Shown in pieces: positions 46,822 to 62,019 of a stretch of DNA of 64,000 bases. The first letter of the stretch is position 1, and each line of letters opens with the position of its first letter. The stretch covers positions 2,699,313-2,763,312 of the forward strand of contig NZ_KI912608.1 in the NCBI RefSeq assembly GCF_000519265.1, given 5' to 3'. The notes beneath the pieces are model-generated. The model was not told the origin of the DNA. It did not search any database and was given only the letters and a program-made list of their open reading frames with translations. This stretch comes from Desulfonatronum lacustre DSM 10312 (GTDB lineage Bacteria; Desulfobacterota; Desulfovibrionia; Desulfovibrionales; Desulfonatronaceae). The position numbers and the translations under genes are program-made.

Positions 46822-47133
46822 CTATCGCCCCCTGAACAAAGCCGCGACGGGAATCAAGTCGACGTTGTCCACAGTGGCATAGTCTTCACCCGTGTAGAAC
46901 AGGACACGTAGGACTTTCAATCCCTTGGGCGAGGAAAACTCATTCAGGTTTCTGACGTCCCTGGCGTCGGGACGGCTGGCGGCCTTGACTTCCACCGCAT
47001 ACAGCACCTCGCCCGCTTCAAATACCAAGCCGATTGAGTGGCTGTCGACGGCAATCACCACATAAAGCGTGGAAGCTTCGTCAACTCTTGCTCGGATGGC
47101 TTGGGTTAGTGGAACGAGTACAAGAGAAATCAA
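46822..47133 (-). pseudogene. Remnant of a DUF4143-type AAA ATPase, C-terminal part
   Basis: A 103-codon frame whose middle, HSIGLVFEAGEVLYAVEVKAASRPDARDVRNL, follows the PD-(D/E)xK-like C-terminal domain of DUF4143 ATPases (usual form: E-V-D-x-[LV]-[LIV]-E ... [LY]-x-[AP]-[IV]-E-[VI]-K). The Asp of the usual EVD is Gly here. The AAA domain that should lie upstream is absent; its place is taken by the aldolase gene. I regard it as a decayed fragment, although it remains an open frame that could be expressed. Confidence 0.6.
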
Positions 47134-47942
47134 AGGGTGGACGACACAATTCCGGAATAGAACCGGATACGCTCGCGCACCACGCTTTGGACTTCCTCAG
47201 CGGCCGCTTCCAGCCAAACCAGGGGATTCTCCGCGCTCTCCCGGCGCTGTCCCTGCTGAATCCCCCGAGCCAGGGCGCGCAGGATTTCCGTATGCACGTT
47301 GATCTTGCGCACCCCGTGCCGCAGGGCTTGTTGCAACACGGGAACCGGCAAGCGGCTGGCCCCGTGCAGCACCAGGGGGACGGATGTCCTGACGGTCAGT
47401 TCGGCCAGCAGGGCGATGCGCTCGGCATATTCGGAATGAGGCAGCCCCTTGGGGACCGAAAAGGCCAGGAAGTCGACTCCGGTCCGCTCCAGAAAATCCA
47501 GCACTGGATCCATATCCTTGAATTGGACGAGGAGCGGGCCGTATTCGCCTTCGATCTCGGCCCCGGCTTCATGGGCCAGTTCACAAGCTTCACGGGTCAG
47601 GCGGATATTTTCTTCCAGGGCCAGACCGGAACCGTCGAACATCACCGACGGCAGCCCCAGTTCCAGGGCTTCGCGGATTCCGGCCAAAGACCGCCCGTGG
47701 TTCAGATGCACGGTCATGGGCACGTCCGCTCTCCGGGCCACGAACAAGGCGGCTTGGGCCAGAGGACCGAGTTTCCCGTCCCCCAGATCACTCTCATCCA
47801 AGGAAACGACGGCGGGCTTGCCCTCCGCCTCCGCCGCAGCCACCACGGCCAGCAGGCTTTCCAGGTTGGAGACGCTGAAACAGCCCACTGCCGCTTTCGA
47901 GGGGAGGGCGTTCAGGCATTGGGTGAGATTGCAAAGCGGCAT
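47130..47942 (-). CDS. Class II aldolase (fructose-bisphosphate/tagatose-bisphosphate aldolase family)
   Basis: A 270-residue TIM barrel. Recognisable blocks are AAVGCFSVSNLESLLAVVAAAE, VPMTVHLNHGRSLAGIREAL, SVMFDGSGLALEENIRLTRE, EIEGEYG and VPLVLHGASRLPVPVLQQAL, with zinc ligands His (HLNHG), Glu and His. The catalytic Asp before the first zinc His (usually H-x-D-H) is Asn here, so activity may be altered. The frame runs to 48032, but its first 30 codons are the shadow of the parE fragment; the ATG at 47942 starts the real protein. No good ribosome site. Its substrate is open; with a sulfonate operon next door, sugar sulfonate cleavage is a speculative option. Confidence 0.75.
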   Translation of the reverse strand: MPLCNLTQCLNALPSKAAVGCFSVSNLESLLAVVAAAEAEGKPAVVSLDESDLGDGKLGPLAQAALFVARRADVPMTVHLNHGRSLAGIREALELGLPSVMFDGSGLALEENIRLTREACELAHEAGAEIEGEYGPLLVQFKDMDPVLDFLERTGVDFLAFSVPKGLPHSEYAERIALLAELTVRTSVPLVLHGASRLPVPVLQQALRHGVRKINVHTEILRALARGIQQGQRRESAENPLVWLEAAAEEVQSVVRERIRFYSGIVSSTL

Positions 47943-47949
47943 GAGGGGG

Positions 47950-48054
47950 CTAAATCTGGGCTTGGCCCAGGCCAAAGTGCTCGGCAGTCCAGGCGAAAAT
48001 TTCGGCAACGTCCTGCTCTGCCTTCCGGGCAAGTCGTATTGTCCAGGACGGCAT
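47950..48054 (-). pseudogene. Truncated ParE-type toxin, N-terminal 34 codons
   Basis: Directly after parD, in a TGATG overlap typical of toxin-antitoxin pairs, a short frame reads MPSWTIRLARKAEQDVAEIF and then AWTAEHFGLGQAQI before a TAG. This is the N-terminal third of a RelE/ParE toxin. The bases after the stop show no further ParE similarity, so the remainder was lost by deletion or replacement, with the aldolase gene starting seven bases later. Confidence 0.75.
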
Positions 48055-48335
48055 CAGCAGGACTTTTCAGCATGCGCAAACAGCTCGGCAAAGTGAGCCT
48101 GTAAATCGTCCGCGGATGAAAAGGAGGTAAACAGCCCGGATTCAATATCGGCAATACCGACAGCAACGGCTTCACGCAAAGCTTGCAGACGCAAACCTTG
48201 TTCCTGTTCACGCCGTTCAACCAAGCGCAGTCCTTCCCGCAGCACCTCGCTGGCGTTTTGATAGCGGCCCGACGTGACGAGCTGTTCCACGAATTGAGTT
48301 TGATGGTCTGTCAGGACGACATTCCGTGTTGGCAT
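48054..48335 (-). CDS. parD: ParD-type antitoxin
   Basis: A 93-residue ribbon-helix-helix antitoxin. MPTRNVVLTDHQTQFVEQLV is the N-terminal DNA-binding strand and helix; GRYQNASEVLREGLRLVERRE is the family signature. The C-terminal part would wrap the toxin. The ATG at 48335 has GGGAGGTT upstream; the longer frame to 48374 is not needed. The matching toxin is truncated, so this is an orphan antitoxin now. Confidence 0.88.
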   Translation of the reverse strand: MPTRNVVLTDHQTQFVEQLVTSGRYQNASEVLREGLRLVERREQEQGLRLQALREAVAVGIADIESGLFTSFSSADDLQAHFAELFAHAEKSC

Positions 48336-48425
48336 GGCAACCTCCCGAAAAATGTTGGCGTATTCTGCCAACATGCCGACAAAGTTGCAATGGGGTCGAT
48401 CTTTTTAAATATCTCTTACTTGATG

Positions 48426-48524: not shown

Positions 48525-49685
48525 CTATGCGCTCTCGTACAGCCGGGTGAAGATGAATTCCCGGTGTCCCAGGGCTTCGGCGGCGGTCAGGCGGCCGTTG
48601 GCCGTGCGCAGGGTCATGTCAATGAGTTTGTCGCCGGCCTGATCCAGGTTGATCTCCCGGCGCACCAGGCCGGACACGTCCACGTCGAAGTGTTCGCTCA
48701 TGGTCCGCAGGGTCCGGGGGTTGGCGCAGAGCTTGATCACCGGGAGGATCGGGTTGCCGATGATGTTGCCCTGGCCCGTGGGGAAGTGATGGACCACGAA
48801 GCCGGCGGCGGCGCACAGGGTGACCATTTCCGCGGCCGCAGAGGAGGAGTCCATGAACCAGAGGCCGGGGCCGGTGGGCGTTTCGGCCTTGTCCAGGCAG
48901 CCGACCACCGGGGCCTTGGTCCCGATCTTCTGGATGTTGCCCAGGGCCTTTTCCTCGATGGTGGTCAGGCCGCCCTCGATGTTGCCCTTGGTGGGCTGGG
49001 AGTCGGACAGATCGCTGGTCTTGTTGTCGTCCACGACTTTGGCGTAGCGGTCGAAGTAGAACTGGAACTGTTTGCGCACCTCGTCATTGACGCAGCGCTC
49101 CAGCACCAGGTGCTCACCGCCGGTCAGCTCCGTGGTCTCACCGAAGAGCAGGGTCGATCCTTGCTCGTAGAGTTTATCGTAGGCATTGCCCACGGTGGGA
49201 TTGGTGGCGATACCGGATGTGGTGTCGGACTCACCGCACTTGGTGGAGATCCACAGTTCCTTCACGTCGCACTCGGTGCGCTGGATTTCGCTGGCCCACT
49301 GCACGTATTCCATGGCCTTGCGGGACGCGGCGCAGATGGTGTTGAAATCCCCGTTCTGCTCAATGGCGAACCCGGTCACGGGTTTGCCGGTCTTGGCAAT
49401 GCCTTCCACAACCCGGTTGGTCCACTGGGGCTCGATGCCGATGACCACCACGGCGGCCACGTTGGGGTTGGAGCCGGTGCCGATCAGGGTGCGGAAATGC
49501 AGCTCCAGATCCTCGCCGAACTGCAACCGTCCATAGGCGTGGGGTAGGGCCAGCGTGCCCTTGACATTGTTGCCCACGGCCTCGCAGGCCGAGTTGGACA
49601 GGTCGTCCAGGGGCAGGATGATCACATGGTTGCGCACTCCCACGCGGCCGTTTTCACGACGATATCCGAGAAACTTGGTCTCCAT
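48525..49685 (-). CDS. suyB: (2R)-sulfolactate sulfo-lyase, large subunit
   Basis: A 386-residue protein of the UxaA/altronate dehydratase C-terminal family ([73 protein letters not shown]). With the separate small SAF-domain subunit SuyA this architecture is that of sulfolactate sulfo-lyase, which splits (2R)-3-sulfolactate into pyruvate and sulfite with an iron-dependent active site. Altronate or galactarate dehydratase is the alternative; however, those usually sit with sugar-acid genes, while here aldehyde oxidoreductase, LarA and TRAP genes precede it. It starts three bases after suyA. Confidence 0.8.
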
Positions 49686-49688
49686 GAC

Positions 49689-49973
49689 TTACCACCTTTT
49701 GGTTTTGATGTTGTGAACGTGGGCATGTTCGCCTTTCTTGATGGGCGCGACCACTTTTCCGATATCCGTGTTGTACTTGATGACCGTGTCGCCCGCGGCG
49801 AAATCCTTCAGGGCCAGCTTGTGACCAATGGGGATGTCGTTGAGGACCGTTGTCTTGACGGTCTGGTCTTCCTTCATCACCCAGCCGGTAATCTCCTGAC
49901 CGGCCTTCACTCCCTCCACCACAACGACGCCCACGCCGTCTGCGGCCTCGTGCACAAGATAATCAATAGCCAT
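49689..49973 (-). CDS. suyA: (2R)-sulfolactate sulfo-lyase, small subunit (SAF domain)
   Basis: A 94-residue SAF-domain protein: VHEAADGVGVVVVEGVKAGQEITGW, then NDIPIGHKLALKDFAAGD and VIKYNTDIGKVVAPIKKGEHAHVHNIKTKRW (the usual H-x-H-N near the C-terminus). The separate small subunit distinguishes SuyAB and some altronate dehydratases from one-chain enzymes. The ATG at 49973 follows AAGGAGGCC. The 340 bases upstream are filled in part by an inserted repeat, so the gene may have needed a new promoter or relies on read-through from the operon. Confidence 0.8.
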   Translation of the reverse strand: MAIDYLVHEAADGVGVVVVEGVKAGQEITGWVMKEDQTVKTTVLNDIPIGHKLALKDFAAGDTVIKYNTDIGKVVAPIKKGEHAHVHNIKTKRW

Positions 49974-50150
49974 ACTGGCCTCCTTCAAGTGGTTGATACG
50001 TAATTACCCTGAGCAGGACCTCCATCCTGCCCCCTTGCCGGCCATCCGGCCCAAACCTTACCATAATGTTCCAACGCCCCACTCTCTCCGGTGAGGCCGC
50101 GTCGTCGAGCGACGCCCTTGGTCAGATCCCGGGCTTGACCAAGGAAATAT

Positions 50151-50311
50151 CGTAACTGCTCAAAAAAGCCGGGCATAATATGAAAGTTCCCTTGCTCCCT
50201 GGATTCCCGCCTGCGCGGGAATGACTTGGAGAGACACGTTTTGCCAAGCTCATCATGCCCGCGCAGGCGGGCATCCAGGCCAAGCTCGCCACAAGTTTTT
50301 GAGCAGTTACG
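50151..50311. mobile_element. 161-bp MITE-like element
   Basis: Perfect 16-base terminal inverted repeats, CGTAACTGCTCAAAAA (50151-50166) and TTTTTGAGCAGTTACG (50296-50311), flanked by a direct repeat AAATAT on both sides (50145-50150 and 50312-50317), the mark of a target duplication. Inside are two inverted GC-rich hairpins, around CCCGCCTGCGCGGG and CCCGCGCAGGCGGG. There is no coding capacity, so it must have moved with a transposase encoded elsewhere. It sits at the thiF-like stop codon inside the sulfonate operon. The remaining 49974-50150 holds no gene, only a CTTGGTCA/TGACCAAG inverted repeat near 50117-50143. Confidence 0.8.
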
Positions 50312-50316
50312 AAATA

Positions 50317-51114
50317 TCAACCGTCCCGCGTGTGCAGACTGACCGTAGAGAATCGCATCTCAACCAGGTCGACCATCAGCAGGTTCCCGCGCAAGGCGGA
50401 GGGAATCCCGAGCAGGATGTGAATCAACTCCGTGGCTTGCAGAGATGCGGCCAGGGCCACCGTGGAGCAGGGATTGCCCTGAAGCTGTTCCGCCGAAGGC
50501 CCGGCACCGTTGCTCATGAACTCGCCCAGCCCCGGCTCTCCGGGCCACGCGCTGCCCACCAGCACGTTCCAGCCGGAGACAGCTGCGGAAACCAGGGGGA
50601 TTCCGGCCTGGGCGGCCATGGTTTGCAGGCCGCGGCGATGCAACGCTCCTCCCAGACAATCGGCCACGACCTGAGCCCCGTGCAGCCGATCCAGGATCAC
50701 TTCCTCGGCCACGGCCGTCACTTCGACCAGGGGATTGATCTCACCGGCCCGGGCCTGGGCCGCCTGGGCCTTGGAACGGCCCATGGTTCGCGTGGTGGCC
50801 AAGAGCTGGCGGTTGGCGTTGCTCGGTTCAAAGACGTCCGGATCGCAGGCCGTGATCCGGCCCACTCCGGTCCGGACCAAGGACTCCAGGACGTGCCCGC
50901 CAAGTCCGCCGCATCCGACCAAAACCACGTGCGCCCGGGCCAGGATGGCCTGATCCGAAGGACTCAGGCACTGGCCGTTGCGCTGGTAGCGCAGGGGCAT
51001 TTCGCCGTGCTCCAGGGCCAGCAACACCTCCTGGCGAATCGTTCGACCGGACTCACGAGCACGCTCCAGAATCTCGCTGTCAGTAAGATGGGTTTGCGCC
51101 GAGGGCTGGGTCAT
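50317..51114 (-). CDS. ThiF/MoeB/HesA-type adenylyltransferase
   Basis: A 265-residue E1-like enzyme. The nucleotide loop is VVLVGCGGLGGHVLESLVRTG, followed by DPDVFEPSNANRQLL (the conserved Asp and the Arg finger-like N-R-Q) and VADCLGGALHRRGL. It would adenylate the C-terminal glycine of a ubiquitin-like sulfur carrier. The MoaD/ThiS-like protein encoded two genes upstream ends in Gly-Gly and is the natural partner. Together they probably make the tungsten-pterin dithiolene of the aldehyde oxidoreductase. The two C-terminal Cys-x-x-Cys zinc knuckles of classical MoeB are not present. The ATG at 51114 is preceded by GGAGGTGATC. Confidence 0.85.
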   Translation of the reverse strand: MTQPSAQTHLTDSEILERARESGRTIRQEVLLALEHGEMPLRYQRNGQCLSPSDQAILARAHVVLVGCGGLGGHVLESLVRTGVGRITACDPDVFEPSNANRQLLATTRTMGRSKAQAAQARAGEINPLVEVTAVAEEVILDRLHGAQVVADCLGGALHRRGLQTMAAQAGIPLVSAAVSGWNVLVGSAWPGEPGLGEFMSNGAGPSAEQLQGNPCSTVALAASLQATELIHILLGIPSALRGNLLMVDLVEMRFSTVSLHTRDG

Positions 51115-51118
51115 AAGA

Positions 51119-52393
51119 TCACCTCCGCCCTTCCGTGGGCCGATAGAAATAGGTGGTATTGGCGTTGGGCACCACGGCGATACGCGGACGTCCGTTCTCT
51201 GGGTACGTCGCCAGCCATGCGTCCAGGGTGGCTTGTGCATCTCCCTTGGTCAGATGGCACTGGGCCAGGGATCGGGCATCCATTTCCGAATCCACCACCA
51301 CGGTGAACCTGGTCAGGGTCCGGCTGAACAGAAACGCTTTGTGCGCGCCCATCCGAAACCCCTGCTCCGCGAACTCCCGCATCTGTTCCACCGGACACGA
51401 AAACCGCCGGACATAGTTCTCGTAGTGCGGATCACCCACCCCTTGGCCGCAGGCCGCCAGAAGCAGGATTTTTCCGCCCTCTTCCGCGCACTGGGAAGCC
51501 ATGTTCAATCCTTTCTGGGCCTGATACAGACAGATATCCTTGGGATCTCCGCCACAGGAGGCGATGACCATCTCAAAGGGCCGGTCCAAAGGCAGGCCGT
51601 AAACCTGCTCCGTAACCGCGGCTCCGGCCCGCAGCGCGGCCTCCGGCTCGCCCACGAACAAGCCCACGGCCTGTTTGCCCGGATTCAGGCAGACGTTCAC
51701 GGCCAAATCAATGTCGATCATCCGCCCGGCCTCGTTCAAATCCAACCGGGTCGGATTGTCCGCGATGTTCCCGACCCGGGCCGCGGGATCGGCCATCAGG
51801 GAATGGTTGCGCTCGATCATGGCCTTGGATGCGCAGCCGATGGTGATGCCCTTGGAGCCGCCGGTCATGCCCTGGAACTGGTGCGGATCCACCATGCCCA
51901 CCACGATCTTCAGATCCGCCTCGCCGATGGCCGCGTTGACCTCCACCGGCGTCCCCCGTGAGGTCGTCCCGAAGGAGGTCATGGGCGAGGTCAGGGCATC
52001 GTGGGCCACGACGGCGCAGCCGTGCAGGTCATCCGGCAGGATGCGGGCCATCTGGGCCGCGTCCGGGGCCGGATGCAGCCCGCCGCCCACCACCACGGCA
52101 ACCTTCTCCGGACGCAGCTCCGGCCACGCCCGGAAAATGCGCTTGAGCAGCACCGGAAGCAGTCGTTTCAACGGCGCGGGCCGGGTCTCATCCGGAACGG
52201 CTATGGCCACACTTGAGGGCATGGACCGTTGCTCCAGGGGCAGGGCGTCCATTGGGGCGTCCAAGGCTTCATGCAGGGCTCCGGACAAATCCCCGATGAC
52301 CGGCAGATCCCTGGGCGTCATCACCACCACCTCGACCCGGTCCGGCAGGCGAAGCATTCTGGTTCCTTTTCCATACTTGAGCAGAATTTCCAT
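51119..52393 (-). CDS. LarA-family nickel-pincer racemase homologue
   Basis: A 424-residue LarA-family protein (DUF2088). Every position known to matter in Lactobacillus lactate racemase has an equivalent: Asp and Arg in VPDETRP (68, 71), His in GGGLHPAP (107), His in VDPHQFQGM (171), Lys in GGSKGITIG (181) and His in IERNHSLM (197), at spacings almost identical to the Lactobacillus enzyme. It should therefore bind the nickel-pincer nucleotide and racemise or epimerise a 2-hydroxy acid. The operon suggests sulfolactate. LarB, LarC and LarE are not in the window. The start at 52393 lies five bases after the stop of the MoaD-like gene. Confidence 0.85.
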   Translation of the reverse strand: MEILLKYGKGTRMLRLPDRVEVVVMTPRDLPVIGDLSGALHEALDAPMDALPLEQRSMPSSVAIAVPDETRPAPLKRLLPVLLKRIFRAWPELRPEKVAVVVGGGLHPAPDAAQMARILPDDLHGCAVVAHDALTSPMTSFGTTSRGTPVEVNAAIGEADLKIVVGMVDPHQFQGMTGGSKGITIGCASKAMIERNHSLMADPAARVGNIADNPTRLDLNEAGRMIDIDLAVNVCLNPGKQAVGLFVGEPEAALRAGAAVTEQVYGLPLDRPFEMVIASCGGDPKDICLYQAQKGLNMASQCAEEGGKILLLAACGQGVGDPHYENYVRRFSCPVEQMREFAEQGFRMGAHKAFLFSRTLTRFTVVVDSEMDARSLAQCHLTKGDAQATLDAWLATYPENGRPRIAVVPNANTTYFYRPTEGRR

Positions 52394-52397
52394 GATC

Positions 52398-52673
52398 TCA
52401 TCCGCCGCAAATGAACGGGCAAAGCGAAACCGAAGCCTTGTCCGGAAGTCTGGTTTGCAATGTGGCCATGTGACCGTTGACAAAGGCGAACATCACCTGA
52501 TCCTCACGCAGTCCCAACAACTGAATCAGCTCCGCCAGGGTGCAGTTCTCCGGAACTGGATACGCTTCCGGATTCGCCGGTGCATGTTCCGCCAGAATGG
52601 ACTCCAGCCGCACCCTGACCGTCACCTCCGCCTCCCCGGCTCGTCCTGTTCCTTGACCCGTATCGCCCATCAT
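52398..52673 (-). CDS. MoaD/ThiS-like ubiquitin-fold sulfur carrier
   Basis: A 91-residue beta-grasp protein: EVTVRVRLESILAEHAP at the N-terminus, LAELIQLLGL, VMFAFVNGHMA and a C-terminal Cys-Gly-Gly end. The Gly-Gly terminus is the site of thiocarboxylation by an E1-like enzyme, here encoded two genes downstream. The start at 52673 has GAAGGG seven bases upstream; a second ATG follows directly. MoaD-like genes are often found beside tungsten aldehyde oxidoreductases. Confidence 0.82.
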   Translation of the reverse strand: MMGDTGQGTGRAGEAEVTVRVRLESILAEHAPANPEAYPVPENCTLAELIQLLGLREDQVMFAFVNGHMATLQTRLPDKASVSLCPFICGG

Positions 52674-52767
52674 TTTTTTCCCTTCGCGAGGGCGCACTTC
52701 GTACGCCCCCGCGCCTTCTGGCTCCTGAATTCCGGCTCCTGAATACTAACGCATGAACTCTCTCCCC

Positions 52768-54639
52768 TCACACCAGCCAATCCAAACTCAGCCTGTACAG
52801 CGTCCCCTTGTTCGGAACGCCGTTCTCGTCCCAGCCCATCATGGCATAGTAGAGATCCACGGCCTGCTGGAAGGAATCCGGGTCAATGGTCCGGCCCTTG
52901 AGCACGCCGTCGGGCAGCGGCTCGAACATCCGCCGGAAGAGCTTGTCGTCCTTGCTGGTCATGCCCTCGCGGACATTGAACATCCGGGCCAGGACAATGG
53001 AGCGCTCAGCCACCAGCATCAGTTCATGCAGGCTGGTGCGCCAGCCGGTGATGGCCTCCACGGCCTCGCCCAGCTTGTCGTAGGTCATGGAAAACAGGGG
53101 GGCGACCACGAAATTGCACAGGCCCAGGGTGTTGTTCATGGCCCAGGTCTTTTCCCCGGCAATGAAGTAGCGGACCTTGTCCGGCCCGTTATCCAGGGCC
53201 TGAGGCGCGACGAAGATGCCCAGCGGGTTGACCAGCTTCACTCCCTCGCCCTGAAAGGGCACTTCATGGGGAGCCTCGATATGGTCCGCGCCCGTGGGGG
53301 ACAGGGCAAAGCCCAGGCCCACGCCGGTCTTGCCCCGGGGGTCGTGAAAAGCCGGTTCCTGGCCCTTGACGTGGAAGGCGTATTCCTCCGCGCCCTTGCC
53401 GATGCGCTGGGCCGCACGCTTGACGCCTTCGGCCAAAGTGTCGCCAATGCCGTCACGGGCCGCGATCTTCTCCACCAACTCCAGCATGCCGGGGCCGTCG
53501 CCAAAGGTAATCGCTCTGCCGCCCAGATCTTCGGCGGTAAGGATGCCCTTCTCCGCCAGTTCCATGGCCATGGCCACCACCGCGCCGGTGCCCACGGAGT
53601 CCAGCCCCAGGGCGTTGCAGCGCTCATGACCCTTGCAGACCGCGTCCAGGTCGCCCACGCCGCACATGGAGCCCAAGGCGGCCAAGGTTTCGTACTCCGG
53701 ACCTCCGTAGCGCTTCTCCGATGTGTTATTCACCTTGCGCTTGCAGGCCACGGAGCATTTGTAGCAGGTGTGCGTCCCGTCCTGGATCTTCTCGTAGCCG
53801 TCCCAGCCCAGCTTGGCCGCATCCTCGAACTGACAGTCCTTCCAGTTACGGGTGGGCAGAATGCCGGAATTCTGCTGGGCCATCAGGTGCTGAACCGTGC
53901 CGAACTTGCGCATGTTCACCGAGGGCATGTGCTCGCCGATGCGCGCCCGGTGCCATTTGTTCAGCTCCTTGAGGGCCTCCGGATCGGCCAGGGTCATGCT
54001 TTCCGCATCCCCGCGAACAACCACGGCCTTCAGATTTTTTGAGCCCATCACCGCGCCCATGCCGCAGCGGCCGTTGGCATGGGCCAGCTCGTTGATCACG
54101 CAGGCCAGACGGACCATATTTTCCCCGGCCGGCCCGATGGAAGCGATGCGGACCTTCTTGCCTTCCGATGCTTCTTGGAGCTCCTCACGGATGGCGTCCA
54201 GGGCCGGAGCGTTTTCCAGCCCCCAGATCCCAGCGGCGTCCCGCAGCTCCACCTGGCCCTTGTTGATCCACAAATAAACCGGCTTGGGGGCCTTGCCGGT
54301 GAAGACCACGGCGTCAAATCCGGCATGCTTCAGTTCCGGTCCGAAATACCCCGCTGCCTCGGATTCACCGAAACCGTTGGTCAAGGGATTCATGGCCGCG
54401 ACGGTGTAGCGGTTGAAACCCGACAGGCCGGAGCCGCAAAGCACGGAAGCGGCAAAGACCAGGACGTTGTCCGGACCCAGGGGATCGGCTTTGGGCGGAA
54501 TATGCTTGAGCATGTACCAGGAGGCCAGGGCTCCGCCGCCCCAGTAGGTGCGGTACCAAGCCTCGTCGTGTTCATCCACGGACCAGGTTTGATTGGTCAG
54601 ATCCACGATAAGAATTTTCCCATTGTAACCAAACGGCAT
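52768..54639 (-). CDS. Aldehyde:ferredoxin oxidoreductase, tungsten type
   Basis: A 623-residue member of the AOR family. The N-terminal pterin-binding domain begins MPFGYNGKILIVDLTNQ and has SGFNRYTVAAMNPLTNGFG. The [4Fe-4S] ligands are the C-x2-C-x3-C at residues 292-299 (CYKCSVAC) and a distal Cys near 508 (LGLCNFV). NGRCGMGAVMGSKNLKAV is the family pterin motif. The enzyme oxidises an aldehyde to the acid with ferredoxin as acceptor, in the cytosol. Between TRAP genes and a sulfolactate lyase the likely substrate is 3-sulfolactaldehyde; that is inference. RBS AAGGAGT. Confidence 0.92.
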   Translation of the reverse strand: MPFGYNGKILIVDLTNQTWSVDEHDEAWYRTYWGGGALASWYMLKHIPPKADPLGPDNVLVFAASVLCGSGLSGFNRYTVAAMNPLTNGFGESEAAGYFGPELKHAGFDAVVFTGKAPKPVYLWINKGQVELRDAAGIWGLENAPALDAIREELQEASEGKKVRIASIGPAGENMVRLACVINELAHANGRCGMGAVMGSKNLKAVVVRGDAESMTLADPEALKELNKWHRARIGEHMPSVNMRKFGTVQHLMAQQNSGILPTRNWKDCQFEDAAKLGWDGYEKIQDGTHTCYKCSVACKRKVNNTSEKRYGGPEYETLAALGSMCGVGDLDAVCKGHERCNALGLDSVGTGAVVAMAMELAEKGILTAEDLGGRAITFGDGPGMLELVEKIAARDGIGDTLAEGVKRAAQRIGKGAEEYAFHVKGQEPAFHDPRGKTGVGLGFALSPTGADHIEAPHEVPFQGEGVKLVNPLGIFVAPQALDNGPDKVRYFIAGEKTWAMNNTLGLCNFVVAPLFSMTYDKLGEAVEAITGWRTSLHELMLVAERSIVLARMFNVREGMTSKDDKLFRRMFEPLPDGVLKGRTIDPDSFQQAVDLYYAMMGWDENGVPNKGTLYRLSLDWLV

Positions 54640-54687
54640 GTGCGGACTCCTTGAGTGTTTTTTTCGTTTCCTATGCGCCGCGCAATG

Positions 54688-55998
54688 TTAGCGGGCGACG
54701 TACCCCAGGAAGATTTCGGGCAAAATGGTGGAGATTTTCGGGAAAAAGGAGATCAACAAAATACAGGCGAACAGAGCCACCAGATACGGCAGCACTCCCA
54801 CCGCTATCCGCTCCACCGAAACATTGGCTATTCGCGAGGCCACAAAGAGGTTCACCCCGAGCGGCGGCGTGGACAGGGCCACCTGGTTGGTCAGCACGAG
54901 GACCACGCCGAAGTGAATCGGATCGATGCCCAGCATGTGGATCATGGGCATGAGTACCGGCACGAGGATGATGATCGTGGACAGGGTTTCCATGAACATG
55001 CCCAGAATGACCAGCACGCCGACTATCATCATCAGCACCATGAACGGATCCTCGGAAACCCCCAGGACCAATGCGGCAAGACGCTGCGGCGCCTCTTCGA
55101 AGGTCAGGATGCGTCCGAACAGGGTGGAAGTGCCCACGATGAGCAGTACCGCGCCGCAGATCAACGAGCCTTCCAGCAGGGATTTGTAGACCCCGGAGAG
55201 CGTCAAAGCGCGGTTGATCACGAATCCGACGAACAGGGCCCAGGCAATGGCCAGTACGGAAGCTTCCACCGGCGTGGCTAGGCCGGTGTAGATGGAACCC
55301 AGGATGATCACCGGCGTAATCAGGGAGAAAAAGCTTTTCAGGCAGCAGCGTAGAAAATTGCCCATACAAAAAGGCTCGATTTCTTCACTTAAGCCGAATC
55401 CTTTCTGTCGGGCCACCAGCCAGGCGGTCATGCACATGGAGAAACCGACGATGAACCCGGGCAGAAAGCCCGCGGTGAACATGGCCGTGACCGAGACGTT
55501 GCCCAGAATGGCGTAGATGATCATCGGATTGCTGGGCGGGATCAACAGGCCGATGGTTCCTCCCGAGGATGCCACGGATGCGGCGTAGTCCTTGCTGTAC
55601 CCGGTACGGATCATGGCCGGGACCAGGATGGTGCCCACCGCGGCCACGGTGCCCGGGCCGGACCCGGATATGGCCGCGAAAAAGGTGCAGGCCAAGATCG
55701 TGGTCACGCCCAGGCCGCCGTGCATCCGGCCCACCAGTTGCTTGACAACGTTGACAATCTGGTTGGTGATGTTGCCGTACTCCATCAAGGTTCCGGCGAT
55801 CACGAAGCAGGGAATGGCCAGCAGGGGGAAAATATTCAGGCCGTCAAAAATAGAGTTGTGAATTACGGACATGGGCAGATAGCCGCCGTAAACCAGGGCC
55901 ACGGCCGAGGCCACGGCCAGGCTCATGAACACGGGCATGCCCAGCAGGAACATGGCTCCCAGGGACAGGAGGACCATTGCCAAGACACTGATTTCCAT
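54688..55998 (-). CDS. dctM: TRAP transporter large permease (DctM)
   Basis: A 436-residue membrane protein with about twelve hydrophobic segments. DctM signatures are IPCFVIAGTLMEYGNIT, ISGSGPGTVAAVGTILVPAMI, SSGGTIGLLIPPSNPMIIYA and a C-terminal half with VSEDPFMVLMMIVGVLVILGMF and NQVALSTPPLGVNLF. It forms the sodium-driven channel part of the transporter. RBS AAGGAGGAG. It lies 19 bases after dctQ. Confidence 0.95.
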   Translation of the reverse strand: MEISVLAMVLLSLGAMFLLGMPVFMSLAVASAVALVYGGYLPMSVIHNSIFDGLNIFPLLAIPCFVIAGTLMEYGNITNQIVNVVKQLVGRMHGGLGVTTILACTFFAAISGSGPGTVAAVGTILVPAMIRTGYSKDYAASVASSGGTIGLLIPPSNPMIIYAILGNVSVTAMFTAGFLPGFIVGFSMCMTAWLVARQKGFGLSEEIEPFCMGNFLRCCLKSFFSLITPVIILGSIYTGLATPVEASVLAIAWALFVGFVINRALTLSGVYKSLLEGSLICGAVLLIVGTSTLFGRILTFEEAPQRLAALVLGVSEDPFMVLMMIVGVLVILGMFMETLSTIIILVPVLMPMIHMLGIDPIHFGVVLVLTNQVALSTPPLGVNLFVASRIANVSVERIAVGVLPYLVALFACILLISFFPKISTILPEIFLGYVAR

Positions 55999-56017
55999 GT
56001 CGTCTCCTCCTTGGTCC

Positions 56018-56524
56018 TTATTGAACCTGTTCCACGAGTTGCAGAAGCGTACCTTGCAGCCATCGCCGGATGTACCCTTCGACGATTCTCCAGCTCATCA
56101 GTACGAAGCCGAAGGGAATGATCATTTCCACGTAGGCCCGGACGATGCCCAGGACCGGCGAAAGTTCCGGAAACAGCAGATTGCTCTGGATCACGTTCCA
56201 GCTCAGCCAGGCAATATAAAGGTTGAAACAGACCCAGAGCAGGTCCGTGAACATCCGAAACCCCAGACGGACTTTCAGGGGCATGAGCAGGTACTGGGCC
56301 GTAATCCGCACATGGGTTCCGTGCTTGGCCACCAAAGCCGCGCCGACAAATACGGTCCACAAAAAAGAATACCGGCTGAGTTCCTCTGTCCAGGCCATGC
56401 CGGAGCCGGTGGCCCAGCGCACCCCGACCTGAATCATCAGACAGGCGACCATGGTCCCCACGCTTAGTGCGCAGAATACTTCCTCGAAATTGTCATAGAC
56501 ATAACGTAGGCTTTTCAAAAACAT
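56018..56524 (-). CDS. dctQ: TRAP transporter small permease (DctQ)
   Basis: A 168-residue protein with four hydrophobic segments. VGVRWATGSGMAWTEELSRYSFLW and the following VGAALVAKHGTHVRI are typical of DctQ. It stabilises DctM. RBS AAGGAGGCAGG. Confidence 0.93.
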   Translation of the reverse strand: MFLKSLRYVYDNFEEVFCALSVGTMVACLMIQVGVRWATGSGMAWTEELSRYSFLWTVFVGAALVAKHGTHVRITAQYLLMPLKVRLGFRMFTDLLWVCFNLYIAWLSWNVIQSNLLFPELSPVLGIVRAYVEMIIPFGFVLMSWRIVEGYIRRWLQGTLLQLVEQVQ

Positions 56525-56559
56525 GGCCGCCTGCCTCCTTGTTCAACGTTTTTTTTGAA

Positions 56560-57558
56560 TTAGTCGGCCATGACCGCCAGGGCCTCGTTGATCACTTCCT
56601 CGCCACCCACCTGTTCATGGAACTTGGGCCACAAACCACGGGCGCGCTCCATCCAAACGTCCTCGTCTTCCAACTCATGGAATTCCATGCCGTTATCCAG
56701 GCACGCCTGCAACGCGATCTGGTCCTGTTCCGCGGCCCATTCCCACTCATAGCGAGCCGCCTCAGTGGCGGCCTTGGTGATCAGGTCTTTCACGGGTTGA
56801 TCCAGACGCTGAAACCAGGGCTCGCTGACCAGCATCGGGCCCACCCAAAGCAGATAGTGCAACTGAGTGATGTACTTCTGGACTTCCCAGAACTTCTGGT
56901 CCCGGTTCACGGCATGGGGATTTTCCTGACCGTCGATGACTCCCTGCTGCAAGGCGTTGAACGTCTCGGTCCAGGCCAGGGGGTGCGGTTCCACGCCCCA
57001 GGAGCGGAAGCTCTCCATCTGGATTTCCACCGGGGGGGTGCGAATCTTCAAGCCCTGAAGGTCACCGATGGTGGTTACGGGCCGGACGGAATTGGTCAGG
57101 TGCCGGTAGCCGCCGATCAGCCAGGACAAGGGCCGGGTGCCGCTCTGCTGGGCGATCTTGTCGGCCATCTTGGCGTTGAAGGCCTCGTCGCTGAGCAGGG
57201 TGTAGGCCGTGTCGATGCCCGGAAACATGTAGGGCAGGTAGTAGATGTTGGCCTGGGGCGCGAAGGGCGTCAGGTTGCCCACGGCCAGCACGGCCAGGTG
57301 GATTTCCTGGGTGCGCAGCTGGCGGACGTTGGCCTGCTCGTCGCCCATGGAGCCGCCGTAAAAGGTTTGGACGCGGATCTTGCCGTCGGACTCGGCCTCC
57401 ACGATTTCCTTGAATTTGTTGATGGCCGTCACATGCAGGCTGCCGTCAGGGTTGGCCGTGGCCGCCCGGATGGTCATGCTCGGATAGTCGGCCGCGGACG
57501 CGGGGAATGCGCCAAACAACAGGGCCAGGGACACGATGGTCAGAAGCACTCGTTTCAT
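56560..57558 (-). CDS. dctP: TRAP transporter solute-binding protein (DctP)
   Basis: A 332-residue periplasmic protein with a clear signal peptide (MKRVLLTIVSLALLFGAFPASA, cleavage after ASA-A). Conserved positions include VQTFYGGSMGDEQANVRQL, the specificity arginine region LKIRTPPVEIQMESFRSWG and FNALQQGVIDGQENP. DctP proteins of this type bind carboxylates or sulfonates with an arginine. It would deliver the substrate of this operon. RBS GAAGGAGAG. Confidence 0.93.
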   Translation of the reverse strand: MKRVLLTIVSLALLFGAFPASAADYPSMTIRAATANPDGSLHVTAINKFKEIVEAESDGKIRVQTFYGGSMGDEQANVRQLRTQEIHLAVLAVGNLTPFAPQANIYYLPYMFPGIDTAYTLLSDEAFNAKMADKIAQQSGTRPLSWLIGGYRHLTNSVRPVTTIGDLQGLKIRTPPVEIQMESFRSWGVEPHPLAWTETFNALQQGVIDGQENPHAVNRDQKFWEVQKYITQLHYLLWVGPMLVSEPWFQRLDQPVKDLITKAATEAARYEWEWAAEQDQIALQACLDNGMEFHELEDEDVWMERARGLWPKFHEQVGGEEVINEALAVMAD

Positions 57559-57663
57559 TCCGTCTCTCCTTCGGTTGGGGGTTGGTATGCCTTTTCACCG
57601 GATCAGCACGTGCCGATCAAGGATTTCGCCATTGTCAACACGAGACAGGAGCGGAGCAGGGCC

Positions 57664-58524
57664 CTACTTGCCGACGGCCTTGATCACCGCGTTGCAGTCC
57701 TCTTTGCCGAATCCCGCGGCGCTGGCCTCCTTGTAGTATTCCAGGGCCGCTTCCATGGCCTTCGGATCCAGGCCCCAGGCCCGGGCCATTTCCAGGCCGA
57801 GACGAACGTCCTTCAGGGCCAGATCCAGGCCGAAGCGCGGCGCGTAGTCGTCATTGGCGATCCACGGGCCGCGAACGTCCATCTGAAAGCTGCGCGCCCC
57901 GGTGTCCGTAAGCAGTTCCAGCAACAGCTTGCGGTCCAGTCCGGCCTTGTCCCCGACCCGGATGCCTTCGGCCAAAACGGCCAGGTTGGTCATCCCGATC
58001 ATGTTGGAAATCAGCTTCACGGCGCAGGCCGCGTCAACGGAGCCCACGTAGTTGGGAATGCCGATGATCTTGAAAATGTCGCCCAGTTTGTCCACCAAGA
58101 TCTTGTCTCCGCCGATGAACATGGGCTCCTCGGCCTTTTCGGCATGGGCCGGAGTCTTGCCCAGGGTGCACTGGATGTATCCCAGGCCGAGCTTCTCAGC
58201 CGCGGCCTTCAACTCGTTGGATGTGCCGGGGTCGATGGTGGAAAGCTCAATGTGCGTGGCCCCTTTTTTCATCTTGGCGTACAGGCCGCCGTCTCCGAGC
58301 ATTACGCCCGTGACGTGTTGGGGCAGGGGCAGACTGGAGAAGACCGCATCGCAGCCCGCCAAATCGGGAAGAGCCTTGGCGGCCTTTCCCGTGGTCCCGG
58401 CATCCAGGGTCCGCTGAACGGCTTCCGCGCTCAGGTCATACACCAGGACGTCCTTCCCGGCGCGAATCAGGTTCCTGGCCAGGGGGCCCCCCATAAGGCC
58501 GGCACCGATGAATCCAATCTGCAT
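57664..58524 (-). CDS. 3-Hydroxyisobutyrate dehydrogenase family reductase (possible sulfolactaldehyde reductase / DHPS dehydrogenase)
   Basis: A 286-residue beta-hydroxyacid dehydrogenase. The Rossmann motif GFIGAGLMGGPLARNLIRAG starts at residue 4, HIELSTIDPGTS is the second family motif, and the catalytic lysine lies in DAACAVKLISNMIG. YihU of E. coli, which interconverts 3-sulfolactaldehyde and 2,3-dihydroxypropanesulfonate, belongs to this family. Given the operon I infer that it oxidises dihydroxypropanesulfonate to sulfolactaldehyde with NAD. The ATG at 58524 behind AAAGGAGAG is chosen over 58602. It is the first gene of the ten-gene operon. Confidence 0.8.
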   Translation of the reverse strand: MQIGFIGAGLMGGPLARNLIRAGKDVLVYDLSAEAVQRTLDAGTTGKAAKALPDLAGCDAVFSSLPLPQHVTGVMLGDGGLYAKMKKGATHIELSTIDPGTSNELKAAAEKLGLGYIQCTLGKTPAHAEKAEEPMFIGGDKILVDKLGDIFKIIGIPNYVGSVDAACAVKLISNMIGMTNLAVLAEGIRVGDKAGLDRKLLLELLTDTGARSFQMDVRGPWIANDDYAPRFGLDLALKDVRLGLEMARAWGLDPKAMEAALEYYKEASAAGFGKEDCNAVIKAVGK

Positions 58525-58617: not shown

Positions 58618-58633
58618 AGCAAAGACCATTCCA
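58618..58633 (-). promoter_or_regulatory. Sigma-54 (-24/-12) promoter of the sulfonate operon
   Basis: On the minus strand TGGAATGGTCTTTGCT matches the sigma-54 consensus TGGCACG-N4-TTGCW, with the GG and GC elements exactly ten bases apart. Transcription would start near 58607, about 80 bases before the first gene. The divergent neighbour encodes a sigma-54 activator, as expected. Confidence 0.7.
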
Positions 58634-58806: not shown

Positions 58807-60426
58807 ATGCAGAAAAGCAAAACCCAGCGTCTGGTCGTTTCCCACATCTTGAGCAAGGAACTGGTCATGGAACTCTCCCGGGCCACGTCCCGGTCGACCT
58901 TTTTTCAATCCCTCTCCCGCCTGCTCCAACAGCAGTTCGCCTTCGACCGCCTGTGCATCAACCTTTACGACCCCAACAGCGAGATGCTCAGTTATTTTTC
59001 CGCGGCCGAGGGCACGGTGGTCAGCTCCCTGTCTCCGGTGCGCAAAGCCGAGCAGAACACCGTGGCCGGACACGTCATCGCCACGCGCAAGCCGGTGGTG
59101 ATCACGGACATTGCCCAGCATTTCGCCGAATCCGTGCTGCACCCCATGGCCGAGGCCGGACTGACCACGACCATGGCTTTTCCCTTGATCCTTAACGATG
59201 AGATCGTCGGCACCCTGCACTGCTCGTTTGTGCGCAAGCCGGACAATCTTTACGGAATCATGGAGTTGTTTCTGGAACTCAGCCCATATGTGGCCGTCTG
59301 CCTGGGGGCTCTGCTGGCCTTGGAACACCTGGAACAGGGAGGAGCGCCAAGTTCCTTGCAATTGTCCTGTGCGCTTCCCGAAGCCAATGAGACCTTCATT
59401 TTCGAGAGTCCAAAGATGCGGCGATTCATGGCCATGGTGAACAAGGTCGCCCGACTGGACATCCCGGTGTTGTTGCTGGGTGAAACCGGGACCGGAAAAA
59501 CCCATCTGGCCCGGTACATCCATGCTGTCGGCAAGCGCGCCACGCAGAATTTCGTCCGGGTCAACTGCCCGGCCCTGTCCACGAGCCTGTTTGAAAGCGA
59601 GATTTTCGGGCATGCCAAGGGAGCGTTCACCGGAGCGTCCACCAAACGAATCGGTCGGATCGAGCTGGCCCACGACGGGACCCTGTTTCTGGATGAAATC
59701 GCGGAATTGAGCCAGGAGATGCAGAGCAAGCTCCTGCATGTTCTGGATGAGCAGTGCTTCGAACGGGTGGGGGAAAGCGTGTCGCTGTCCGTGGACGCGC
59801 GCCTGGTGACCGCGACCAACGTGGACGTCCAGCAGGCCATGGCCCAGGGCAAACTGCGCCGGGATTTCTATTATCGGCTCTCGGCGTGCACGCTGGAACT
59901 TCCTCCGTTGCGTGAACGCCCGGAGGACATCCCGGTGCTGGCCAACTTTTTCATCAATCAGCTTTGCCCCCAGCACGGACTGCCCAAGCCGCGCTTGACT
60001 TCGGAGATGACGAACCGCCTGCTCGACCACCACTGGCCGGGCAATATCCGCGAACTGCGCAACGTCCTGAGCAAGATCCTGCTCAAGAACTGTATTTCCG
60101 GAGAATTGACCACCGATGACATCCGCGAGGTCCTGAACAAAGAGGGTGACGACATTCAGAAGCTGGAAAGCCTCCAGCCCGCCCCCGGAGAAGCCGCTTT
60201 CGAACACGATTCGGCCCGGACGACATCGAAGCCTGCTCGCTCCACGTCAGATGGTCCGCCACGGCTGGAGGACCTGGAGCGCCAACATATCCTGGAAACC
60301 CTGCGCCGAACCCGCGGCGTGGTCTCCGGCCCCAAAGGCGCCGCCGCCCTGCTCGGCCTCCCCCGCTCCACGCTCCAACACCGGATGCGCAAGCTGGGGA
60401 TTGATTGGAAGAAAGAAGCGTGGTGA
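58807..60426 (+). CDS. GAF domain sigma-54 transcriptional activator
   Basis: A 539-residue activator. Residues about 20-185 form a GAF domain (FDRLCINLYDPNSEMLSYFS, VAGHVIATRKPVVITD, TTMAFPLILNDEIVGTLH), as in FhlA-type sensors of small metabolites. The AAA+ domain has Walker A GETGTGKTHLARYIH, the GAFTGA loop and Walker B GTLFLDEIAE. The C-terminal Fis helix-turn-helix is in GPKGAAALLGLPRSTLQHRM. It is divergent from the sulfonate operon and almost certainly activates it, with the sulfonate or an intermediate as effector. No receiver domain is present. Confidence 0.92.
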   Translation: MQKSKTQRLVVSHILSKELVMELSRATSRSTFFQSLSRLLQQQFAFDRLCINLYDPNSEMLSYFSAAEGTVVSSLSPVRKAEQNTVAGHVIATRKPVVITDIAQHFAESVLHPMAEAGLTTTMAFPLILNDEIVGTLHCSFVRKPDNLYGIMELFLELSPYVAVCLGALLALEHLEQGGAPSSLQLSCALPEANETFIFESPKMRRFMAMVNKVARLDIPVLLLGETGTGKTHLARYIHAVGKRATQNFVRVNCPALSTSLFESEIFGHAKGAFTGASTKRIGRIELAHDGTLFLDEIAELSQEMQSKLLHVLDEQCFERVGESVSLSVDARLVTATNVDVQQAMAQGKLRRDFYYRLSACTLELPPLRERPEDIPVLANFFINQLCPQHGLPKPRLTSEMTNRLLDHHWPGNIRELRNVLSKILLKNCISGELTTDDIREVLNKEGDDIQKLESLQPAPGEAAFEHDSARTTSKPARSTSDGPPRLEDLERQHILETLRRTRGVVSGPKGAAALLGLPRSTLQHRMRKLGIDWKKEAW

Positions 60427-60609: not shown

Positions 60610-62019
60610 ATGTTTCAGTTAAGCGGGCGGCAACGCAGCGTCGCCAAGAAGATGACCACCGACCTGGCGGCCCGGAAGGCCAAGGCAGCGATCCAGCTCA
60701 AACCGCGGGTACTCAAAGCCGATCCGGACAGCCAGAATCTTGAAAAAACGACGGATTGGAAATCCCAATGGACCGATTGGAAATGGCATGTCCGTAATTC
60801 CATTCGAGACCTGGATACCTTTGAACGCCTGCTCGGGGTCCGCTTTCCGGACTTGCAACGCAAGGCCTTCGCCCGGACCACGGACAAGTTCCCCATGTCC
60901 GTCACGCCCTACTATCTCTCCTTGATCGATCCCGAGGACTACGCCGAAGACCCGGTCTTCCTGCAGGCCTTTCCATCGCCCAAGGAACTGATGGTCGGAC
61001 GCAACGACATGAGCGACCCCCTGCACGAAGACGAGGACAGTCCTGCCCCGGGGATCACCCACCGTTACCCTGACCGGGTGCTCTTCCACATCAGCAACGT
61101 CTGCTCCATGTACTGCCGCCACTGCACCCGCAAACGCAAGGTGGGGGACCAGGACACCGAGGCCATGGCCGGAAAGCGGGAACTGCTCCAAGGGCTGGAC
61201 TACATCCGCAAGACCCCCCAGGTCCGGGACGTGCTGCTTTCCGGCGGGGACCCGCTGATGCTCTCCGACGAGCGCCTGGACTGGATTCTGGGCGAATTGC
61301 GGACCATCGACCATGTGGAGGTGGTGCGCATCGGCACCCGGATGCCCGTGGTCCTGCCCTACCGGATCACCGACGACCTAGTGCGGATGCTCAAAACGCA
61401 TCACCCGTTGTGGCTGAACACCCATTTCAATCATCCCCGGGAAATCACGTCCACGTCCAAGGCCGCTCTGGCCCGCCTGGCCGACGCCGGAATCCCCCTG
61501 GGCAACCAGTCCGTGCTGCTGGCCGGGGTCAACGACTGCCACCGCCTGATCCGCACCCTGAACCAGAAGCTGGTCAAGAACCGGGTACGGCCCTACTACC
61601 TTTACCAGTGCGACCTGTCCGAGGGATTGGAGCATTTTCGGACCCCGGTGGGCAAGGGCATCGAGATTATCGAAAGCCTGCGCGGTCATACCAGCGGCTT
61701 CTCCGTACCCACCTACGTTGTGGACGCCCCGGGAGGCGGCGGAAAGATCCCGATCATGCCCAACTACGTGGTTTCCTGGGGTGCGAACAAGGTCGTGCTG
61801 CGCAACTTCGAGGGCGTGATCACCACCTACGCCGAGCCGGAAAGCTACGAGGCCCGGTTTTGCGACCGCAAGTGCGATGCCTGCAATCTCCAGCTCAAGG
61901 AAGACGACGCCGTGGAGCAGTGCGTGGGCATCGAGAAGCTCCTGTCGGATTGGGACGACACGTGCAGCCTGACCCCCAGCGACAATGCCAGAATGGAGCG
62001 TCGCAACAATGTTGCCTAG
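60610..62019 (+). CDS. ablA: Lysine 2,3-aminomutase
   Basis: A 469-residue radical SAM, PLP enzyme (also named kamA) converting L-alpha-lysine to L-beta-lysine. The cluster motif is CSMYCRHC (C-x3-C-x2-C), followed by [12 protein letters not shown]. The PLP-binding lysine is in [12 protein letters not shown]. Three C-terminal cysteines ([11 protein letters not shown] region) resemble the zinc-binding tail. RBS GGGAGGAGA. With the overlapping ablB gene it forms the pathway to the compatible solute N-epsilon-acetyl-beta-lysine. Confidence 0.93.

Follow-up and report, generated by a model that had tools for sequence, protein, structure and literature searches.

The operon described here lies in a 64,000-nucleotide stretch of Desulfonatronum lacustre DSM 10312 DNA (the window; positions 2699313-2763312 of a 3.76-Mb single-contig genome), and in this sulfate reducer, of the order Desulfovibrionales, it probably serves the respiration of 2,3-dihydroxypropane-1-sulfonate (DHPS), and of any 3-sulfolactate met with it, with a LarA homologue of the LarAH5 family as racemase. 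The association of LarAH5 genes with suyAB, which encode (R)-sulfolactate sulfo-lyase, is new here. The operon as such is real and conserved, and its kind (DHPS respiration via SuyAB) is a known one; one of its enzymes probably has a new function, and one step is uncertain. DHPS and sulfolactate are major organic sulfur carriers, and DHPS is common in algae and plants. Both DHPS enantiomers have been described in phytoplankton and seawater (PMC11131964).

Ten minus-strand genes fill positions 48525-58524 of the window, in the order dhpA-like, dctP, dctQ, dctM, aldehyde:ferredoxin oxidoreductase (AOR), moaD-like, larA, thiF-like, suyA and suyB. All are open frames, most of them with a purine-rich ribosome-binding site, and the gaps between them at the likely starts measure 105, 35, 19, 48, 94 (or 70), 4, 4, 343 and 3 bases; the 343-base gap, between the thiF-like gene and suyA, is occupied by a dispersed repeat, and the other gaps span 3-105 bases. 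Pfam cut-offs were passed for the NAD_binding_2/11, DctP, DctQ, DctM, AFOR_N and AFOR_C, ThiS, Lar_N and LarA_C, ThiF and GD_AH domains. Frames, gaps and family matches thus confirm the ten-gene, one-strand operon with short gaps and one inserted repeat that a first-pass annotation, made from the sequence alone, had described.

57664..58524, minus strand: dhpA-like NAD-dependent dehydrogenase of 286 amino acids; PF03446 and PF14833 over cut-off; ATG start with GGAG upstream.
56560..57558, minus strand: DctP, substrate-binding protein of a tripartite ATP-independent periplasmic (TRAP) transporter; PF03480, 229 bits.
56018..56524, minus strand: DctQ, TRAP small permease; PF04290, 92 bits.
54688..55998, minus strand: DctM, TRAP large permease; PF06808, 358 bits.
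52768..54639, minus strand: AOR, COG2414; PF02730 and PF01314; 374 bits to PDB 9mqx and 339 to 1aor.
52398..52697, minus strand: MoaD/ThiS-like small protein ending in GG; PF02597, 27 bits (cut-off 22.5); the start may be the ATG at 52673.
51119..52393, minus strand: LarA homologue of the LarAH5 family; NF052595, 574 bits (cut-off 462); the longest frame reaches 52483.
50317..51114, minus strand: ThiF/MoeB-like adenylyltransferase; PF00899, 138 bits; the longest frame reaches 51240.
50151..50314, no strand: dispersed repeat with inverted ends (arms 50144-50166 and 50296-50318); 26 matches in the host genome, a number that covers its own site and some places hit on both strands.
49689..49973, minus strand: suyA, (R)-sulfolactate sulfo-lyase small subunit, 3 bases upstream of suyB.
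48525..49685, minus strand: suyB, (R)-sulfolactate sulfo-lyase large subunit; 73.7% identity to a homologue in the hpsN-hpsO cluster of a Cupriavidus pinatubonensis plasmid.

In the proposed pathway, the TRAP transporter would import DHPS, the DhpA-like dehydrogenase would oxidise it to 3-sulfolactaldehyde with NAD+, and AOR, its pterin cofactor supplied by the MoaD-like and ThiF-like proteins, would oxidise the aldehyde to 3-sulfolactate while reducing ferredoxin. LarAH5, carrying the nickel-pincer nucleotide (NPN), would interconvert (S)- and (R)-sulfolactate, allowing both enantiomers to reach SuyAB, which would cleave the (R) form to pyruvate and sulfite, the latter serving as electron acceptor for DsrAB; DsrA is present in the host genome. 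From sequence and gene context we infer each of these reactions in the host, what LarAH5 and AOR act on, what the MoaD-like and ThiF-like proteins do, and the sigma-54 control discussed below. The first-pass annotation had proposed the same course from DHPS through sulfolactaldehyde and sulfolactate to pyruvate and sulfite; enzyme families, the SuyB tree and conserved neighbourhoods support it, while its AOR step stands against one negative assay.

Gene neighbourhoods carry the case for the racemase. A scan of genomes with the window LarA protein yielded 29 loci, none labelled Bacillota, which were pooled with seven more into 36 related LarAH5 loci (the window not counted), and 12 loci of other LarA types were taken as controls. 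Either suyA or suyB was present in 29 of the 36 LarAH5 loci versus none of the 12 controls (Fisher 7e-7; because the loci are related, this and the Fisher values that follow overstate independence and are only a guide). Among loci flanked by 6 kb or more on each side, the figures were 10/13 and 0/7. The controls, seven of which have 6 kb on both sides, include the host's second Lar_N gene, taken by place (L053), and a 3.4-kb contig (L048); loci set aside were L036, which shares a contig with L066, and L003-L011, which are short first copies. Among 395 genomes of the phylum, 233 presented some LarA-family match and eight exceeded the LarAH5 cut-off; SuyB (E up to 1e-110) was found in 18 genomes, LarAH5 in the eight and both in five (Fisher 6e-6). 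Not counted among the eight is G386, whose LarAH5 protein, beside suyAB, is cut by a contig end and scores 457 bits. The seven LarAH5 loci lacking SuyA and SuyB comprise L034, whose genome carries suyB about 10.8 kb away from larA, L040, whose contig ends 21 bases past larA, L039, with 317 bases on one side and 38% identity, and L066, L068, L070 and L072, to which we return below.

A second line of evidence comes from the known route of sulfolactate racemisation, in which SlcC and ComC convert (S)- to (R)-sulfolactate ahead of SuyAB (PMC12421959, PMC10507020); the SlcC/ComC route is named in PMC6018796, and ComC and SlcD in PMC12330013. The queries for SlcC and ComC were an NAD(P)-dependent oxidoreductase and an Ldh-family protein encoded beside suyAB on a Methylobacterium plasmid and named from context, with limits of 100 bits for SlcC and of 100 or 150 for ComC. 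A SlcC+ComC-like pair was found in the examined flanks of suyAB in 4 of 13 loci without LarAH5 versus 0 of 29 with it (Fisher 0.006), a contrast that is not significant (0/10 vs 3/10, about 0.2 by hand) among loci with 6 kb on both sides, which number 10 of the 29 LarAH5-suyAB loci. In L120-L124, L127 and L131, suyAB is accompanied by neither LarAH5 nor the SlcC/ComC-like pair in the flanks examined. The Ldh_2 domain of ComC (PF02615) had no match in the host genome, in which SlcC was not searched, and had matches in 4 of 14 control genomes. Taken together, the suyAB neighbourhoods, the SlcC/ComC contrast and the lack of a host ComC point to LarAH5 as the strongest candidate for racemising sulfolactate with one enzyme, and the earlier suggestion that the LarA homologue adjusts the sulfolactate stereoisomer is supported by this comparative gene context.

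In another genome of the phylum, a LarAH6-like protein (199/500 bits; L132:7865-9142) is encoded directly upstream of suyA, perhaps another case, independent of the first, in which a LarA-family protein was recruited for sulfolactate.

The protein itself belongs to the LarA superfamily, as first noted, and within it to LarAH5, a family named 'malate racemase'. Lactate racemase was rejected as an identity (215 bits vs a cut-off of 460), and the LarAH6 model likewise stayed below its cut-off (331 vs 500 bits). Using residue equivalences drawn from PMC7583248 and PMC11770544, counterparts of H108, H174, R75, K184, H200 and K298, covering the catalytic histidine pair and the NPN-binding residues, were located in the window protein, along with the malate-type lysine of the GAHK motif and the HK pair. 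The GAHK lysine, the catalytic histidines and the NPN residues are conserved in the aligned LarAH5 rows, and the residue following the second catalytic histidine is Gln in all 33 rows aligned there, the window included; it may or may not be the Gln/His position given for group 5 in PMC7583248. The fold appears safe enough, given a 216-bit match to the solved Mar2. Of the three proteins that make the NPN cofactor (LarB, LarC and LarE), LarC (LarC1/LarC2 over cut-off) and a LarE-family protein at 190 bits (cut-off 150) were looked for and found in the host. Sulfolactate is malate with a sulfonate replacing the distal carboxylate. The host also encodes a second, divergent Lar_N protein (G000:C1:3180239-3180625; L002, L053). 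On plasmids, LarA-related proteins were found in 17 records, none closer than 31.5% identity.

The distribution of AOR bears on the preceding step. AOR was found in 12 of 13 loci with DhpA (L037, L054, L056, L058, L060, L064, L065, L067, L069, L071, L074, L077 and L079) and in none of 14 loci without DhpA, all of the latter with 6 kb or more of flank on each side (L035, L038, L062, L120-L128, L131 and L133, with L126 and L127 sharing one genome; Fisher 7e-7). Three loci were dropped for flanks below 6 kb (L129, L130 and L132), and two lie outside both sets: L055, with AOR but no DhpA, and L059, with the first 45 AOR residues at a contig end. Conserved neighbourhoods were recovered both for LarAH5 with suyA or suyB and for AOR with DhpA; the first-pass annotation had proposed a search for AOR-LarA-SuyAB neighbourhoods. 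Among these loci AOR thus follows the alcohol-oxidising branch rather than the cleavage of sulfolactate, as would be expected of an enzyme that oxidises sulfolactaldehyde. The exception, L037, encodes a GabD/SlaB-type aldehyde dehydrogenase, 56% identical to that of the host, and an ABC-type substrate-binding protein. Four Cys, one Glu and one His of AOR, whose roles are taken from Pyrococcus AOR, are conserved in 14 of 14 aligned AORs, the window's included. On balance, oxidation of 3-sulfolactaldehyde by AOR in the host seems somewhat likely.

Several points weigh against the operon as read here, the first of them at the AOR step. The recombinant AOR of Desulfovibrio sp. DF1 was inactive on sulfolactaldehyde, with no benzyl-viologen reduction and no sulfolactate formed, and inactive also with lactaldehyde and acetaldehyde, the step being carried out by SlaB (PMC6278857). 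It is conceivable, if doubtful, that sulfolactaldehyde is oxidised in the host by a SlaB-like GabD-type enzyme, with AOR detoxifying stray aldehydes or serving another step. The operon has no match to PF00171, the family of SlaB-type aldehyde dehydrogenases, and the GabD-type enzyme that could do the work, one of three PF00171 matches in the host, is encoded in a second sulfonate cluster (the cuy cluster, described below). AOR and a GabD-type enzyme occur together in L065, and AOR is also present in the cuy cluster, where no sulfolactaldehyde would be expected if cysteate is the substrate. This account has to contend with the fact that AOR tracks DhpA and not SuyAB, and with the host GabD-type enzyme itself, which scores 664 bits to PDB 3jz4 (NADP succinate-semialdehyde dehydrogenase) versus 571 to 8c54 (named succinate semialdehyde dehydrogenase), a structure we take to be Rhizobium SlaB. 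Moreover, the HisD-family and iron alcohol dehydrogenases of the cuy cluster make an aldehyde step plausible there too, and the inactivity of the DF1 enzyme, which by the section heading was expressed in E. coli, may in our view reflect missing tungsten. Beyond DF1, no link between AOR and sulfolactaldehyde appeared among the literature matches listed, whose coverage mostly leaves aside subscription papers and bioRxiv.

The remaining adverse points concern LarAH5: the relatedness of the loci and the narrowed SlcC/ComC contrast given above, the host search confined to ComC, the presence of ComC without SlcC in three LarAH5-suyAB loci (L059, L076 and L077), and the four loci L066, L068, L070 and L072, which lack SuyAB despite long flanks examined and are real exceptions within those flanks. 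These loci carry TctA-like (L066, L070 and L072) or 2-hydroxyacid dehydrogenase-like (L068, L070 and L072) genes, as might be expected were LarAH5 a genuine malate (or tartrate-like) racemase, supplying central metabolism or drawing on it, with its proximity to suyAB reflecting sulfonate respiration coupled to malate use. The curated name of NF052595 is in line with a malate role, and Mar1 of Desulfitobacterium hafniense, the LarAH5 namesake, was assayed as a malate racemase (PMC7583248). Sporomusa LarAH62, which may or may not belong to LarAH5, racemises malate with a Michaelis constant (KM) of 0.21 mM for D-malate and has a similar pocket (PMC11770544), and sulfolactate is not among the substrates reported for these racemases in the accessible text of either paper (PMC7583248, PMC11770544). 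We nevertheless regard a malate role as unlikely. Mar1 has a KM of 55 mM for L-malate, and the authors who described it question whether malate is the native substrate (PMC7583248). For tartrate, one of the alternatives that they put forward, a weak, promiscuous activity of Mar1 has since been described (PMC11770544). Against a malate role stand also the 29 LarAH5 loci with suyA or suyB and the occurrence, at other suyAB loci, of a pair resembling SlcC/ComC, which is known to racemise sulfolactate (PMC12421959). Action of the LarAH5 protein on sulfolactate as a racemase thus remains the likely reading.

L068, L070 and L072 belong to Syntrophales or Syntrophaceae, one or more of them with URO-D, TctA or pyruvate:ferredoxin oxidoreductase-like genes, which suggests another substrate or another sulfonate route for their LarAH5 proteins.

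The cleavage step is the firmest of the pathway, and SuyAB almost certainly cleaves (R)-sulfolactate in the host. SuyB is 70% identical to a Methylobacterium plasmid protein encoded beside TauE and an oxidoreductase/Ldh-family pair; both this protein and the C. pinatubonensis homologue are annotated 'UxaA family hydrolase'. A plasmid search with SuyB gave 314 matching records, 13 at 60-80% identity and 301 below 60%; among the best 60 of the 314, three reach 66-74% (in the hps cluster, beside TauE and the oxidoreductase/Ldh-family pair, and in Rhodococcus) and 57 are at or below 40.4%. In a tree of 40 rows, the window SuyB fell inside a 30-row SuyB clade (support 100/99, branch 1.96), the ten rows outside it being four altronate dehydratases, three galactarate dehydratases and three other UxaA-family proteins. 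Six of these ten rows and the Rhodococcus row inside the clade have long branches, whose joins may be false, and we therefore rely on the tree for nothing beyond the separate standing of the SuyB clade. SuyA falls just below the Pfam cut-off for a SAF-type match (20.5 vs 21 bits), and in the C. pinatubonensis hps cluster a partner of the same size, annotated as a UxaA family hydrolase, precedes the suyB homologue. A sugar acid or other C3-C4 hydroxyacid as substrate, with SuyAB as a UxaA/GarD-type dehydratase, is very improbable: SuyB does share GD_AH domains, and GarD is the one NCBIfam model that it matches, below cut-off (136/731 bits), but the identity gap from 66% to 40.4% among those best 60 plasmid matches and the clade support speak against it, and on the tree we reject altronate or galactarate dehydratase, the placement that the first-pass annotation had itself named as fatal to its proposal.

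On a Haladaptatus plasmid (L094:1-5623), AOR and a ubiquitin-like small modifier lie near UxaA-family proteins, the best of them 40% like SuyB, a possible archaeal counterpart.

At the head of the operon, the dhpA-like protein very probably catalyses the step from DHPS to 3-sulfolactaldehyde. Its family (PF03446 and PF14833) and gene context agree with DhpA and make it a candidate orthologue of the DF1 enzyme, and its closest solved structure, PDB 9k2j_A, is matched over nearly the full length with 435 bits. The 'YihU-type' label that it was first given did not hold, since the YihU model (NF012005) scored 126 bits vs a cut-off of 348, and YihU itself was rejected as an identity.

Upstream of the operon, a divergent activator gene and a promoter candidate were identified:

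58807..60426, plus strand: sigma-54-dependent activator, divergent from the operon; NifA/NorR-type models match, all below cut-offs.
58618-58633, minus strand: candidate sigma-54 (-24/-12) promoter TGGAATGGTCTTTGCT, facing the operon, with 2 mismatches to TGGCACGNNNNTTGCW.

As such matches are no commoner than chance across the window (10 versus 12.3 expected), significance of the site from the window alone was rejected, and its support comes from the comparative scan only. Of 23 intergenic regions between activator and operon, 19, that of the window among them, contained a match with no more than 2 mismatches, each facing the operon, against shuffles that preserve base composition only; the four regions that failed had 3 mismatches (L055), 6 (L061 and L074) or no match (L063). 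A homologue of the activator is present in 25 of the 36 related LarAH5 loci. The activator and the -24/-12 candidate, which do not appear in the first-pass annotation, probably belong to the operon unit, and sigma-54 control of the operon is predicted with considerable confidence from these conserved arrangements.

The combination of AOR and LarA with SuyAB had been put forward as undescribed. In part this does not hold, as DhpA, AOR and SuyAB have been together in print since 2018: in Desulfovibrio sp. DF1, one locus encodes DhpA, SlaB and an induced AOR, and suyAB lies at another place in the genome (PMC6278857). The LarA part stands, in that no link of LarA or nickel-pincer enzymes to sulfolactate was found among the literature matches listed, with the coverage given above. 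The operon resembles the DF1 system in its 3-hydroxyisobutyrate-dehydrogenase-type DhpA, the adjoining AOR, SuyAB cleavage and sulfite respiration, and differs from it in uniting AOR, TRAP, LarAH5 and suyAB in one operon without SlaB, whereas DF1 relies on SlaB and a candidate ABC transporter, with no mention of LarA in the accessible text (PMC6278857). The DF1 study used racemic substrates, and its main text touches stereochemistry only under chemicals and in one reference title (PMC6278857). L037, with its GabD/SlaB-type dehydrogenase and ABC-type binding protein, recalls DF1. Conversion of (S)- to (R)-sulfolactate before SuyAB is shared with the SlcC/ComC systems of Taurinivorans and Paracoccus, after Chromohalobacter (PMC10507020, PMC12421959), but these employ two dehydrogenases via sulfopyruvate, whereas a single nickel-pincer enzyme is proposed for the window, whose host has no ComC-type gene. 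With Mar1, compared here by its published description only, the window protein has in common the LarAH5 family, the catalytic and NPN-binding residues and an HK pair characteristic of malate racemases; the difference lies in Mar1 having been assigned to malate, on the 55 mM KM. D. hafniense is reported to have suyAB (PMC6278857) and to grow by sulfolactate respiration (PMC12890257). Finally, the HpsN/HpsO/HpsP-SuyAB clusters, such as that of the C. pinatubonensis plasmid (L091), also lead from DHPS to sulfolactate and SuyAB, their HpsNOP enzymes being replaced by DhpA and AOR in the window.

If the proposed reading is correct, a sulfolactate racemase would supply the missing step for anaerobes that use both enantiomers, a native substrate would be at hand for Mar1, and a curated family name used in automatic annotation would need correction; sulfonate respiration would also be tied to nickel and tungsten supply.

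The second sulfonate cluster lies about 67 kb away (L088:8311-10909 and L086:1-11088; host approximately 2667310-2680590) and encodes a HisD-family (HpsN-like) dehydrogenase, an iron alcohol dehydrogenase, two DctP, DctQ, DctM, RidA, CuyA (524 bits, cut-off 450), AOR, MoaD, the cysteate racemase CuyB (281 bits, cut-off 190) and the GabD-type dehydrogenase. Both clusters share one plan: alcohol dehydrogenase, AOR, racemase, sulfo-lyase and TRAP transporter. The AOR proteins are 96% identical and the adjacent MoaD copies 85%, and the 91.5% DNA identity of the AOR-MoaD segment over 2265 bases indicates a recent copy. In the nearest relative (L054), cuyA starts about 7 kb beyond suyB, its first 72 residues being 97% identical to the host's, and the AOR beside dhpA is of the 53% type. 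The cluster is a candidate for respiration of cysteinolic acid or cysteate, an assignment that is a lead only, because DHPS pathways joining HpsN to CuyA are already known (PMC11382572).

Reading both clusters together, we tentatively suggest that all LarAH5 proteins may be 3-sulfolactate racemases misnamed after malate, and the first single-enzyme nickel-pincer sulfonate racemases. In sulfonate-respiring bacteria, dicarboxylate enzymes would then have been recruited for sulfonate look-alikes: sulfolactate would be handled by the malate racemase family and cysteate by CuyB, of the aspartate racemase family. A single AOR-MoaD cassette, exchangeable between the two branches, would oxidise the C3 sulfo-aldehydes of each, and the second cluster would respire cysteinolic acid, the amino analogue of DHPS.

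Downstream of suyB, a class II aldolase-like gene far under curated cut-offs (window 47130-48032, minus strand) has matches in L054 (63%), L082 (49%, cut by a contig end) and L058, L059 and L063 (37-38%), all LarA-suyAB loci; a ParD-family antitoxin gene (window 48054-48374, minus strand) lies between it and suyB. Beyond the activator, an ablA-ablB pair (lysine 2,3-aminomutase and beta-lysine acetyltransferase; window 60610-62956, plus strand), presumably a route to the osmolyte N-acetyl-beta-lysine, may reflect a saline habitat of the host.

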